This document shows positions 36,205-43,039 of a stretch of 64,000 nucleotides of DNA, piece by piece. The notes beneath the pieces were generated by a model. It had not been told where the DNA came from. It was given only the letters and a program-made list of their open reading frames with translations, and did no database searches. The stretch spans positions 310,001 through 374,000 of the forward strand of contig NZ_JACVPO010000002.1 of the NCBI RefSeq assembly GCF_018881835.1. Reading direction: 5' to 3'. The stretch is from Polynucleobacter hallstattensis. GTDB lineage: Bacteria > Pseudomonadota > Gammaproteobacteria > Burkholderiales > Burkholderiaceae. The translations under genes were made by a program, and so were the position numbers. Positions within the stretch are counted from its first letter, which is position 1. Every line of letters starts with the position of its first letter.

Positions 36205-36585
36205 TTAGGACTCTATCTTCATTTTCTTAAACTTATCTAACAGTGCCAAACTCGCCAAGATTTGATTGGCCATATCGGCATCAAGCTCCCCTTTGGCTAG
36301 CGCATAGAGCACTTGATCGGCGTGCTCTGCTTCTGGGGCAGCTAGTAGTTCCTTAAAGATTTCTTTTTGTGTCATGCCTAAATGAATCTGTAATGGCACT
36401 AGATTGATTTGCACGGCGCCTCCTTTGATGCCAAAGCGCACCTGGGCCATCTCAATGAGTTCACTACGCTGCTTTTCTTGGAGCTGGGTAAATGAGGGCA
36501 TTTGGGTGCTTGCATTCGCTGCACTCGCAGCAGAAGCGATGGCAGGTCCTTTGCGAGGCTTTTTATATATCAAGTCATCATCCAC
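36205..36585 (-). CDS. conserved-looking protein of unknown function
   Basis: The frame is open from ATG 36615, but GTG 36585 has a GGAG ribosome-binding site exactly 6 bases upstream. I therefore start there (about 126 residues, VDDDLIYKKPRKG). The middle is SELIEMAQVRFGIKGGAVQINLVPLQI and the end is helical with MANQILASLALLDKFKKM. There is no signal peptide, membrane segment or Cys. It could be a small cytosolic adaptor. The small membrane protein lies 47 bases downstream in the same direction. Confidence 0.6.
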   Translation of the reverse strand: MDDDLIYKKPRKGPAIASAASAANASTQMPSFTQLQEKQRSELIEMAQVRFGIKGGAVQINLVPLQIHLGMTQKEIFKELLAAPEAEHADQVLYALAKGELDADMANQILASLALLDKFKKMKIES

Positions 36586-36692
36586 AAAAGTCTCCAATCT
36601 CACGATGTATACCATTCTGCTGAAATACTACCTTGACTGAAGAGTTTTGACTGAACTTTTGTGGGATCGCTTGTACCCTGCAATTAGAAATA

Positions 36693-37358: not shown

Positions 37359-37784
37359 ATGTTTGATAGAAAACCCTCTAGCTCACAACTGACCTTTACC
37401 AATGAAATTGGTTCGGGATCTAAAGTGCTTGGAAACCTCGAGGGCAATGGCAACGTTCGGGTTTTGGGTCATTTTGTCGGCAATATTACAGAAGTAGCAG
37501 AGAGTAAAGCAACCTTAGTGATCGACAAAGATGGTGTTCTGACAGGCGATTTGCACTACACCAATCTCATTGTTGCTGGGACGATTGAAGGCACCATTAC
37601 CGTAGATGAAAAAATTGAGGTCTACCCTAGCGCCTTGATTCACGGTGATATTCACTATAAATCGATTGATATCCATCCCAATGCCAGAGTCAATGGACTC
37701 CTCACTTGCTCAGTTTTAGATAAGGGCGCACAAAAGCCATCTGATGTGATTGCCTTTGATCTGACCAAAAAGATCGCCTCATAA
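37359..37784 (+). CDS. bactofilin family cytoskeletal protein
   Basis: The 141-residue protein has the right-handed beta-helix repeats of bactofilins. These include KVLGNLEGNGNVRVLGHFVG, GVLTGDLHYTNLIVAGTIEG and KIEVYPSALIHGDIHYKSID, flanked by short disordered ends. Bactofilins polymerise without nucleotide at the membrane and place cell-wall or surface enzymes. No M23 peptidase gene is next to it, unlike many bactofilin loci. The partner 48 bases downstream is unknown. Confidence 0.88.
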   Translation: MFDRKPSSSQLTFTNEIGSGSKVLGNLEGNGNVRVLGHFVGNITEVAESKATLVIDKDGVLTGDLHYTNLIVAGTIEGTITVDEKIEVYPSALIHGDIHYKSIDIHPNARVNGLLTCSVLDKGAQKPSDVIAFDLTKKIAS

Positions 37785-39171: not shown

Positions 39172-39198
39172 TTAAAAAAACCACCCAAAGGTGGTTTT
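39172..39198 (-). terminator. Rho-independent terminator of the channel operon
   Basis: On the minus strand a 9-bp perfect stem (AAAACCACC / GGTGGTTTT) with a TTTG loop runs into a T tract (seven A at 39174-39180 on the plus strand). It lies 92 bases after the channel stop codon. Confidence 0.85.
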
Positions 39199-39289: not shown

Positions 39290-40942
39290 CTAGCCTTTAT
39301 TCTTCGCCTTTTCTCCATCATGCTGCAAGAGTAACTTGAGTACATTGCTTTGTAGTGAGGTGACATTATCTGGGTTCTCAGCAAATTTACCGAGCTCCTG
39401 GCGATCCGACACACTGACAATTTGCTGCAGCTTAGAGATGGTGATCTTCAATTGCTCTGCTGCAAGCTCAGGATGCTTTGATAAAAATTCTAGGCTCATT
39501 TCGCTTGCAGCAGCTGCCTTATGACCCTTACCGCCATTGGTATCTGGCGCATGTTCTACACCCATCTCTACCTTAGCCTTTTCTAGTAAGCGCGCAAGCT
39601 CTCCATGGGATAGATGCAAACGCTTAGCCTCAGCCTCAATGAGTTCTTGCTCATCGGCTGAAATCACACCATCTTCTAGCATGTGATAGAGCTCATTCAT
39701 CATTCTTTCGCGCTCAATCCGTAGTTGATCACTGAGTGCAGATGAAAGAATCGCTGCCGGAATTGCAAAAATACCAATCCCCAAGAGCGCTATGACAATG
39801 GTAACGGCTCTACCTGCAGGGGTAATGGGAGAAATGTCACCATAACCTACGCTGGCCAAAGTAATCACAGACCAATAAATTGCTTGCGGAATATTTTCAA
39901 ACTTATCGGGCTGAGCTTCATGCTCAAAGACATAACCTAAACAGGCGGCGAGCATGACAAGTAATAGCAAAATGAAAACCGCAGCCTTCATGACAGGCCA
40001 CTCGCGTTGAATCACAGTAAATAAAGATTGAGTAGCGCCAGAATAACGCGCTAGCTTTAGTAAGCGCATCAATCTAAAGACTCGCAAGAAGCGCAAGTCA
40101 AAGAGGTGATGAAGCAGACTCTCTAAATAGAAAGGCGCAATTGCCATGAGATCAATAATGCTCGTTGGTCTACATGCGTATCTTACGCGTCCTTTGAACC
40201 AAGCCTGGTACTTAGGATCCTCAGGGGCGCTATAAATCCTCATGATGTATTCTGTCGAGAAAATCACCACTGCAATGGTATCGAGAATAATAAATTCAGA
40301 ATGTAGGTGGTAACTAATACTGTGGACTGATTCAAAAATTACCGCTAACACGGACACAATGACCCAGCTCACAATAAACATATCAAAGATGTAATGCAGC
40401 TTGCCACTGGTCGGTGTTTCATTGACTAGGGCATAAATCTTATAACGATAGGATTTGTCTTTGTTGAGCTCTAAAAACTCGTTGAACGCTGGTGCCAAAG
40501 CGCGGAAGAGTTTAAGTAAACGCAGTAAACGTAGGGCTCTTAGAATCCGTAAATCAGCCTCAAAGAAAGCGCTTAAGTAGAACGGCAAGATCGATACCAA
40601 ATCAATGAGGGCAAATGGGCTCTTGCAGTAAGCAAGACGAGGATATTTAGCCGAACTAAAGGCAGGATCTTCTGGCGCAACATACACGCGCAAGACGTAT
40701 TCAATCGAAAAGATAGCCAGCGAGACCACATCAAAAATATGAAAGAGGTGTTCCCGAGTTTCGTAAAAAACCGGAATATGCTCAAGCACTAAACCTACCA
40801 TATTGAGTACGATCATGTACGCAATGAAGCGCTCGAACTGGTTGCAATAATTGGTTTTAATCTGGTGATTAAAGAATAAGTCAAACATCCGCTTACGGAT
40901 GTGTAAGTTCAAACTAGACAATGAAATCGACTGGAGATTCAT
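39290..40942 (-). CDS. potassium channel with two tandem voltage-sensor domains and one pore
   Basis: The 550-residue protein has two related four-helix voltage sensors. VSD1 covers about residues 38-150 and VSD2 about 183-302. Each carries a matching S2-S3 block: EYVLRVYVAPEDP (81-93) and EYIMRIYSAPEDP (231-243), exactly 150 residues apart, with IDLVSILPFYL and IDLMAIAPFYL at the same offset. Both S4 helices are Arg-rich (LRILRALRLLRLLKLFR and LRFLRVFRLMRLLKLAR). Only the second is followed by S5 (318-339), a K+ filter SVGYGD (365-370) and S6. The C-terminus is a hydrophilic helical domain with DGVISADEQELIEAEAKRL, TerB-like. A second gene overlaps upstream. Confidence 0.88.
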   Translation of the reverse strand: MNLQSISLSSLNLHIRKRMFDLFFNHQIKTNYCNQFERFIAYMIVLNMVGLVLEHIPVFYETREHLFHIFDVVSLAIFSIEYVLRVYVAPEDPAFSSAKYPRLAYCKSPFALIDLVSILPFYLSAFFEADLRILRALRLLRLLKLFRALAPAFNEFLELNKDKSYRYKIYALVNETPTSGKLHYIFDMFIVSWVIVSVLAVIFESVHSISYHLHSEFIILDTIAVVIFSTEYIMRIYSAPEDPKYQAWFKGRVRYACRPTSIIDLMAIAPFYLESLLHHLFDLRFLRVFRLMRLLKLARYSGATQSLFTVIQREWPVMKAAVFILLLLVMLAACLGYVFEHEAQPDKFENIPQAIYWSVITLASVGYGDISPITPAGRAVTIVIALLGIGIFAIPAAILSSALSDQLRIERERMMNELYHMLEDGVISADEQELIEAEAKRLHLSHGELARLLEKAKVEMGVEHAPDTNGGKGHKAAAASEMSLEFLSKHPELAAEQLKITISKLQQIVSVSDRQELGKFAENPDNVTSLQSNVLKLLLQHDGEKAKNKG

Positions 40943-41502
40943 AATTTAAATTCTCCAATTCTGATCAGGTAAAAACCGGTATCGCAAAGACTCAGGCGAA
41001 TTTGTAAGCCGCTGACGAGTCTTTCCCCAGGCTCTAGTGGAGATACTCCGGGAGGCCCTGCCGGATTGGCGGTCAGTTTTTCAAAGATGAGAGCTCCGCT
41101 ATTGAGCAGATCTGTTTTATTACATTTAGCTGTATATGCTGGACCAGCCGGATTTAAAAGATTGACATAGCTCTCAAAAGGACCTTTGGCTCCAAAAAGT
41201 GCTTCAACGCAATTTTTCCAGTGGTTTGGCTTGACACCTTTAATCAATTTTTCATCTTCATCTATCGGTGTGCATGCTGCAGGTTCAATAGAATCATTGG
41301 CTTCGCTCTTGCTAGAAAGAGCCTCAAACCAGGCAACGATCTCTTCGGCGTTATCTTGTGATGTTGCTATCTTATCTGCGTTTTGATAGTTTCCTATTCC
41401 AAGATAGATCACTAGAAGCACGTTAGCCAATACAATCAAAATAAAGAAATAGTCCGAAACGCGCATGTCGCGAAATAAAATTTGGATATTCTTGCCCAAC
41501 AC
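40939..41502 (-). CDS. single-pass membrane protein cotranscribed with the channel, unknown function
   Basis: The 187-residue product has one membrane helix (about residues 17-37, SDYFFILIVLANVLLVIYLG). A presumably periplasmic domain follows with four Cys (77, 98, 127, 173), enough for two disulfides. The start is GTG/TTG at 41505/41502 behind GGGAG. The stop overlaps the channel start as ATGA, so the two are translationally coupled. This makes it a candidate auxiliary subunit. No family is recognised. Confidence 0.75.
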   Translation of the reverse strand: MLGKNIQILFRDMRVSDYFFILIVLANVLLVIYLGIGNYQNADKIATSQDNAEEIVAWFEALSSKSEANDSIEPAACTPIDEDEKLIKGVKPNHWKNCVEALFGAKGPFESYVNLLNPAGPAYTAKCNKTDLLNSGALIFEKLTANPAGPPGVSPLEPGERLVSGLQIRLSLCDTGFYLIRIGEFKL

Positions 41503-42496: not shown

Positions 42497-43039
42497 TTAG
42501 TGCTGCTTATATGTTGAGGTCACTAGCTTTTCTGTATACGCAATCGCTACTGCTGAAAATACAAAGGTCATGTGAATAACGGTTTGCCACAGCAAGGTTT
42601 TTTCATCGTGTGAGGACGCATTAATAAAGGTCTTGAGCAAATGAATTGATGAAATTCCAATAATGGCAGTTGCCAGCTTCACCTTGAGTACGCCTGCATT
42701 GACATGCGATAGCCACTCAGGCTGATCTGGATGGTTCTCTAGCTCCAAACGCGACACAAAGGTTTCCCAACCACCAACGATGACCATCACCAACAAATTA
42801 GAGATCATCACCACATCAATCAGACCCAACACAATGAGCATGAGTGCAGTTTCTGTCATATTTTTCTCTGACATCATGCTAATCAGATGGGCCAACTCTA
42901 ACCAGAACTGCCATACATAAACACCTTGGGCAACAATCAGGCCAATGTAGAGCGGTGCCTGCAACCAGCGGGACATAAATATCCAGCGTGGCAGTGGGCG
43001 TAATTTTTTATCTATGAAGGTTTGCTTGTCATCGATCAT
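42497..43039 (-). CDS. YqhA/UPF0114 family membrane protein (TIGR00645 type)
   Basis: The 180-residue protein has four hydrophobic segments. It contains the family blocks [39 protein letters not shown] and [20 protein letters not shown]. The C-terminal half resembles the E. coli YqhA family, for which no function is known. It is convergent with the exonuclease gene, 19 bases apart. Confidence 0.9.

Follow-up and report, generated by a model that had tools for sequence, protein, structure and literature searches.

A bacterial potassium channel with two voltage sensors and a single pore per chain, and its linked candidate partner gene

The locus

The DNA analysed here (the window) is a stretch of 64,000 nucleotides from contig NZ_JACVPO010000002.1 of Polynucleobacter hallstattensis, whose genome comprises 2.1 Mb in two contigs. 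At 39290..40942 (-) it contains the gene for a potassium channel of 550 amino acids with two voltage-sensor domains (VSDs), delimited from its open reading frame, Pfam matches, an AlphaFold2 model and the other members of its family. Directly upstream, and overlapping the channel start by 4 bp, lies a gene for a protein of 187 residues, the partner gene (40939..41502 (-)), which the first-pass annotation of the window had missed. Some 90 bp past the channel stop there is a terminator-like hairpin (39177..39198 (-)), which is a consensus match only; seven sites of this sort occur in 3.3 kb, against 3.0 expected from shuffled sequence.

Two matches to the Ion_trans family (PF00520) fall within the single open frame of the channel. 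The first covers the second sensor (VSD2) together with the pore (E = 4.1e-33), while the other, to profile positions 4-112, is confined to a sensor, here VSD1 (E = 2.6e-18). The pore family Ion_trans_2 (PF07885) matches once, at residues 325-403 (E = 1.2e-18), and the channel contains one SVGYGD sequence, at residues 364-369. Pfam and AlphaFold2 together give the order VSD1-VSD2-S5-SVGYGD-S6, in agreement with the earlier claim, made from the letters alone, of two full voltage sensors and a single K+ pore per chain. The frame, coordinates, strand and residues on which that claim was built are also as described: EYVLRVYVAPEDP lies at residues 81-93 and EYIMRIYSAPEDP at 231-243, IDLVSILPFYL at 113-123 and IDLMAIAPFYL at 263-273, and the spacing of 150 residues is exact.

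In phmmer searches of PDB sequences, the VSD1 region (residues 29-161) matches a Nav1.7-VSD2/NavAb chimera (E = 4.1e-7), KCNQ2 (7e-6) and, from 6e-6, bacterial entries named 'Ion transport protein'. VSD2 and the pore match KCNQ5 by sequence at 1.9e-28. The nearest NCBIfam potassium channel equivalogs score 59.9 bits of a required 300 and 46.7 of 425, far under their cut-offs.

Structural model of the channel

The channel was modelled with AlphaFold2 from an alignment of 27 rows, six of them dual-sensor proteins and 21 single-sensor proteins that cover only VSD2 and the pore. The model has a mean pLDDT of 79.6 and a pTM of 0.58, with pLDDT below 50 at filter residues 366-368 and at 465-481 and 544-550 in the C-terminus. 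VSD1 (40466..40849 (-), residues 32-159; defined by AlphaFold2, PF00520, phmmer and conservation in 32 proteins) is predicted to form helices at 32-54, 64-91, 109-126 and 131-159, so that residues 38-150, on whose being a four-helix sensor the first-pass reading depended, are indeed modelled as one. Its S4 bears R132, R135, R138, R141, K144 and R147, with F78 and E81 in S2 and D114 in S3. VSD2 (40043..40405 (-), residues 180-300; AlphaFold2, Pfam and conservation) has predicted helices at 180-204, 207-241, 259-276 and 283-300, and its S4 charges are R284, R287, R290, R293, K296 and R299.

The S4-S5 helix (residues 302-313), S5, pore helix, filter and S6 follow at 39725..40039 (-), as placed by AlphaFold2 and Ion_trans_2. 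The filter is TLASVGYGD (361-369), and S6 is taken to residue 406 although the helix in the model extends to 422. The remainder (39290..39724 (-), residues 407-550) is a helical C-terminus assigned to the cytosol from AlphaFold2 and alignments; a similar motif is found in single-VSD relatives. Fold comparison in effect covered residues 161-428, that is VSD2 and the pore alone, and over this range Kv4.2, Kv2.1 and Kv1.2 are matched with Z scores of 17-19. For Kv4.2 the match to residues 164-418 has a Z score of 19.0 and an rmsd of 4.0 over 244 aligned residues.

Distribution of the dual-sensor channel

The first-pass annotation had proposed a search for homologues with two VSDs and one pore, and relatives were duly found, both within the genus and beyond it. 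In Polynucleobacter, which according to PMC7522526 can account for much of the bacterioplankton in fresh water, 29 of 186 genomes carry the dual-sensor channel, at 31 places in all; one of these places (G490:C48) is cut by a contig end and another, in G590, is broken near its start. Identity to the window's channel is 92% in Polynucleobacter bastaniensis and 76% in Polynucleobacter sp. UB-Piko-W3; one of the Polynucleobacter genomes encodes a protein identical to that of P. bastaniensis (L003 and L058). The broken copy in G590 (L083/L119) has two TAA codons within the profile match near the start, and its partner gene is intact.

In a sample of 250 Burkholderiales genomes the channel was present in two, the window's own (G000) and G941, and in the family of the latter it was found in three of 26 genomes (G941, G982 and G984). 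Across a phylum-wide sample of 398 genomes, with at most three candidates per genome scored at E <= 1e-30, it was again seen in two, both Polynucleobacter. Judged by the stretch of profile matched, there was no dual-sensor channel among 195 genomes of the order of G282, a member of the same phylum (E <= 1e-25), or among 190 of its class (E <= 1e-60). The scan of genomes from all phyla used only six exact short peptide patterns, so that dual-sensor channels beyond Pseudomonadota may be missed by it.

Mobile and viral sequences add two further instances. Among the 20 listed of 72 matching plasmid records, a place on a Gemmobacter aquarius plasmid (L057:2707-4182) is alone in spanning both sensors in one piece; by eye, the open reading frames upstream of this gene are transposase-like. 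None of the six phage records with a match spans both sensors. IMG/VR holds one dual-sensor copy, truncated by the contig end and 56% identical, and a broader query there returned 32 loci, 31 with a single VSD match and the remaining one the same dual-sensor contig.

The dual architecture is thus patchy and rare in the genomes searched, and spans two families; the Gemmobacter plasmid possibly extends it to two classes. Full-length matches free of stop codons come from 28 of the 29 Polynucleobacter genomes and from three genomes of the second family. This bears on the suggestion that the open frame is an artefact of assembly or annotation, or a pseudogene made by fusing two genes. Nothing in the window speaks for such an origin, the nearest thing to support being the broken relative in G590, and for the family it is refuted by the intact copies in two families and by the low dN/dS ratios given below; we regard it as next to impossible. 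The VSD-VSD-pore architecture is confirmed as real and as kept across a family, and that family is an evolving one.

The first-pass annotation offered the novelty of the architecture as its own supposition, and this has held up: among the open-access full texts searched, none was found to describe a channel whose chain combines two sensors with a single pore, and one may yet be annotated in a domain database or still be unpublished. We rate the dual-sensor channel as a variant of Kv channel not found described, with a candidate subunit family that is also new.

Some of the single-VSD channels seen during these searches are encoded in tandem pairs whose genes overlap by 4 bp (L162:1459-3368 and L168 in G992, L163:521-2379 in G986 and L169:1441-3341 in G990). 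Both members have degenerate filters, one reading TISTGYGN or TITSGYGN and the other TIVGGWGN or TIIAGWGG, and such pairs look as though they might form a heteromeric channel of unusual selectivity. Adjacent channel matches likewise occur in G985 and G989.

Conservation and selection in the two sensors

Conservation was compared in 32 distinct dual-sensor proteins, a set that leaves aside L116 (truncated by its contig), L155, L156 and the second dual-sensor protein of G025. In the S4 of VSD1, R135, R138 and R141 are present in all 32 and R132, K144 and R147 in 31, so that 31 proteins have all six charges together; E81 and D114 are invariant and F78 is found in 31. VSD2 is similarly conserved, with the charges at 290, 293 and 296 kept in all 32 proteins and those at 284, 287 and 299 in 31. 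The sole exception at these sensor positions is the Gemmobacter protein, in which S4 charges have been lost in both sensors, save at position 299, where it is the IMG/VR copy that differs, having Lys. GYGD is present in every protein and the whole filter is identical in 31 of 32, the Gemmobacter channel carrying A363S and V365I.

In the eight of ten pairs for which it could be computed, VSD1 has a dN/dS ratio of 0.033-0.152; for VSD2 the range is 0.051-0.160, likewise from eight of ten pairs, and for the pore 0.010-0.059, from all ten. Purifying selection acts on VSD1 about as strongly as on VSD2.

These patterns help to weigh the idea that VSD1 is a structural, assembly or localization module which need not sense voltage, with VSD2 the sole sensor. 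It would fit the Gemmobacter channel, in which VSD1 keeps part of its S4 charges yet the architecture persists, and the single-VSD relatives of 392-401 residues, which manage without any VSD1. A mere scaffold, on the other hand, need not retain charges, and in VSD1 all six in S4 are found in 31 of the 32 proteins, the charge-transfer residues of S2 and S3 in 31 or 32, and selection is strong; the Gemmobacter protein, having lost charges from VSD2 too, says little about VSD1 by itself. We hold the module reading to be possible, if doubtful, and favour one in which VSD1 would serve as an extra voltage sensor.

Composition of S1 bears on a different proposal, raised in the first-pass annotation, that the first sensor could conduct protons. 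Here VSD1 would be an Hv1-like proton or gating-pore conductance fused to a potassium channel, for which there is the precedent that a pore-less VSD, that of Hv1, can conduct protons, and the S4 of VSD1 is Arg-rich, as the proposal would have it. According to PMC4429351, Hv1 requires a mid-S1 Asp, and this residue is missing here. Three of 30 rows have an Asp in the S1 core of VSD1 (residues 36-53), always at position 37, its inner end, and never mid-helix, while mid-helix position 47, as located from the family rows rather than by alignment to Hv1, is Asn in 29 of 32 proteins, Ala in one and missing in two. The composition of S1 thus disfavours the proposal, and proton conduction by VSD1 seems distinctly unlikely; our preferred reading is a role in tuning the potassium pore.

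Origin of the first sensor

The motif pairs quoted above had been described as near-identical and, by implication, as a sign that the two sensors are close. The residues and their spacing stand, as already noted, and the implied closeness does not: over the whole domain VSD1 and VSD2 of the window's channel are only 30.7% identical, when VSD1 is 31.5% identical in the median, and 40.7% at best, to 57 VSDs of single-sensor channels. Motifs of the same kind recur, moreover, in ordinary single-sensor relatives. Since whole-VSD identity is no higher between the two sensors than to unrelated single VSDs, motif identity was rejected as evidence of duplication. Similarly, APEDP is exact in VSD1 in five of ten aligned proteins, with one-residue variants in three more, and in VSD2 in two of ten, so that its double occurrence is no mark of recent copying.

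Phylogenies of both VSDs had also been proposed in the first-pass annotation. In a first tree of 121 rows the VSD1 sequences form one clade with support of 99/99, that of Gemmobacter on a very long branch, and the VSD2 sequences do not. For a second tree, of 102 rows, 17 long or distant loci (Gemmobacter included) were dropped, 12 near-copies thinned out and new rows added. The VSD1 sequences are again one clade (100/99) and the VSD2 sequences join four single-sensor channels of 392-401 residues (97/96). VSD1 lies nearest to five short single-sensor channels (83/90), a placement seen with a midpoint root and on which we do not lean. The internal duplication that had been read from the motifs is neither shown nor rejected by the trees: in AU tests a single clade of VSD1 and VSD2 has p values of 0.305 and 0.312, and of 0.491 with the four close single-sensor channels added. 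From these sequence comparisons we conclude that the architecture has one old origin, whether by duplication or by fusion of another channel's sensor.

The partner gene

The partner protein has one predicted N-terminal transmembrane helix, followed by a domain with cysteines at 77, 98, 127 and 173. All 18 aligned partners have one hydrophobic stretch near the N-terminus with cysteines after it; the column of C77 is nearly invariant and the other three cysteine columns are fully so. The partner belongs to no Pfam or PHROGs family, the best stray Pfam match (E = 0.043) being to an unrelated family and seen in one of the 18 members. The best match among PDB profiles has E = 0.4, with the reservation that short proteins with one transmembrane helix are easily missed by such searches. 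An AlphaFold2 model from a four-row alignment (pLDDT 41.7) was too poor for use.

The occurrence of the partner follows that of the channel closely. It was found in 27 of the 186 Polynucleobacter genomes, every one of them among the 29 with a dual-sensor channel, and a profile search found it in none of the 157 without (Fisher 1.7e-30, uncorrected for relatedness). The Burkholderiales sample has it in two of 250 genomes, exactly the two with the channel, and the class sample in one of 229, the window's own. It was not found in G521, which has a single-VSD channel of 392-401 residues and no dual-sensor channel. As the profile derives from partners found beside dual-sensor channels, it could overlook distant ones in other places. 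Across the 20-kb surroundings of the channel in 21 of the 29 genomes the flanking genes vary, but in every one except G010 the gene next upstream is the partner (20 of 21); in the second family it is directly upstream in all three cases. No partner-like open reading frame lies within 2.7 kb upstream of the Gemmobacter gene, and the IMG/VR contig ends before the partner's place. G010 and G589, whose channels are closely related, have a dual-sensor channel with no detectable partner, so the architecture can exist without one.

Because of the gene overlap and the near-absolute linkage to the channel, we read the partner as a candidate auxiliary subunit. Channel and partner would form a two-gene operon, the partner being in near-perfect linkage, as one element of the overall explanation set out below, whose odds as a whole we put at about even.

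The same observations allow VSD1 to act mainly on the partner, a voltage change being passed to the outer domain as a periplasmic signal beside the K+ current. Such a role would suit a protein with one transmembrane helix and a four-cysteine domain that tracks the dual-sensor channel and not single-VSD channels. G010 and G589, however, keep an intact VSD1 with no detected partner, and no known domain is recognizable in the partner itself, and we think this rather unlikely as the main role of VSD1, preferring a partner that tunes the sensor.

Several other genes near the channel were noted. A UPF0114 (YqhA) membrane protein is encoded at 42497-43039 (-) (PF03350, E = 4.3e-35), and on the IMG/VR contig L086:2923-3552 looks by eye like a protein of the same family. 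A 136-residue protein with no Pfam family (36205-36615 (-)) is found within about 10 kb of the dual-sensor operon in 15 of 21 neighbourhoods, covering both main contexts. Bactofilin genes flank the operon in two chromosomal contexts (37359-37784 (+); L005:7635-8913; L187 and L190-L193), in one genome group alongside a ParA-like gene and one for an M23 peptidase. A functional link to bactofilin was considered and dropped because the window's genome has ten bactofilin matches and the flanks vary.

Proposed mechanism

Our joint reading, made from sequence and predicted structure, is of a two-gene operon in which VSD2 would gate the pore, VSD1 would be an extra sensor tuning that gating and the partner would tune VSD1; we give it a probability of roughly 0.5. 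Four chains would together build a single K+ pore surrounded by their VSD2 domains and, with two sensors in each chain, the channel would have eight sensors in place of the usual four. VSD2 is expected to gate the pore through the S4-S5 helix as in ordinary Kv channels, since it is positioned as any Kv sensor is, followed by that helix and the pore. The four VSD1 domains would lie outside, each connected to VSD2 through the long helix of S4 and linker (131-159) followed by residues 160-179. As its charges are kept, VSD1 is taken still to move with voltage, and its movement may alter the kinetics of VSD2 and the pore or shift their dependence on voltage, a form of allosteric tuning. Contact between VSDs has a precedent in NavAb, where, according to PMC10730821, mutant sensors leave the pore and dimerize in high-speed AFM. 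The partner might dock in the membrane beside VSD1 or between the sensors, with its Cys-bearing domain outside the membrane.

A bolder arrangement would make the ring of VSD1 domains a separate voltage-signalling module working on the partner, so that the complex would both conduct K+ and signal the membrane voltage to other channels nearby or to the periplasm; this is speculative and we consider it improbable. Theory of Kv gating assumes one sensor per subunit, and a natural subunit with two, their charges intact, in two bacterial families offers a probe of gating charge, cooperativity and voltage range. It could reveal whether a VSD acts at a distance from the pore, and the partner may be an example, in bacteria, of a protein that assists a voltage-gated channel as an auxiliary subunit.

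Comparison with known systems

The window's channel resembles the six-transmembrane Kv channels of the Ion_trans family, with which it shares VSD2, the S4-S5 helix, S5-P-S6 and the SVGYGD filter. It has a GYG filter with pore helix, S5 and S6, and a charged S4 joined to them through the S4-S5 helix. The closest solved relatives are KCNQ5, KCNQ2 and Kv2.1 by sequence and Kv4.2 by fold. Such channels have one sensor per pore subunit, whereas the window's channel adds a second complete VSD and a linked partner gene. Among single-sensor proteins, the closest kin of VSD2 are the channels of 392-401 residues from Polynucleobacter and G969, VSD2 being 46-48% identical to three from Polynucleobacter and 43% identical to that of G969. 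Their N-terminus resembles the VSD1-VSD2 linker by eye, and they have no VSD1.

KCNE subunits, which tune KCNQ channels, are small proteins with one transmembrane helix that accompany a Kv channel, as the candidate partner would be from its sequence and gene linkage. No sequence relation between the two was found with Pfam or PDB profiles, by which short proteins of this kind are easily missed, and the partner differs in that its gene is linked to that of the channel. Hv1 and the voltage-sensing phosphatases contain a VSD without a pore domain and so resemble VSD1 as a self-contained sensor; Hv1 has a mid-S1 Asp and no pore, whereas VSD1 of the window's channel has no mid-S1 Asp and is joined to a K+ pore. 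Two-pore channels, finally, have two VSDs per chain, as here, in the layout VSD-pore-VSD-pore; they thus contain two pores, compared with the one of the VSD-VSD-pore chain encoded in the window.
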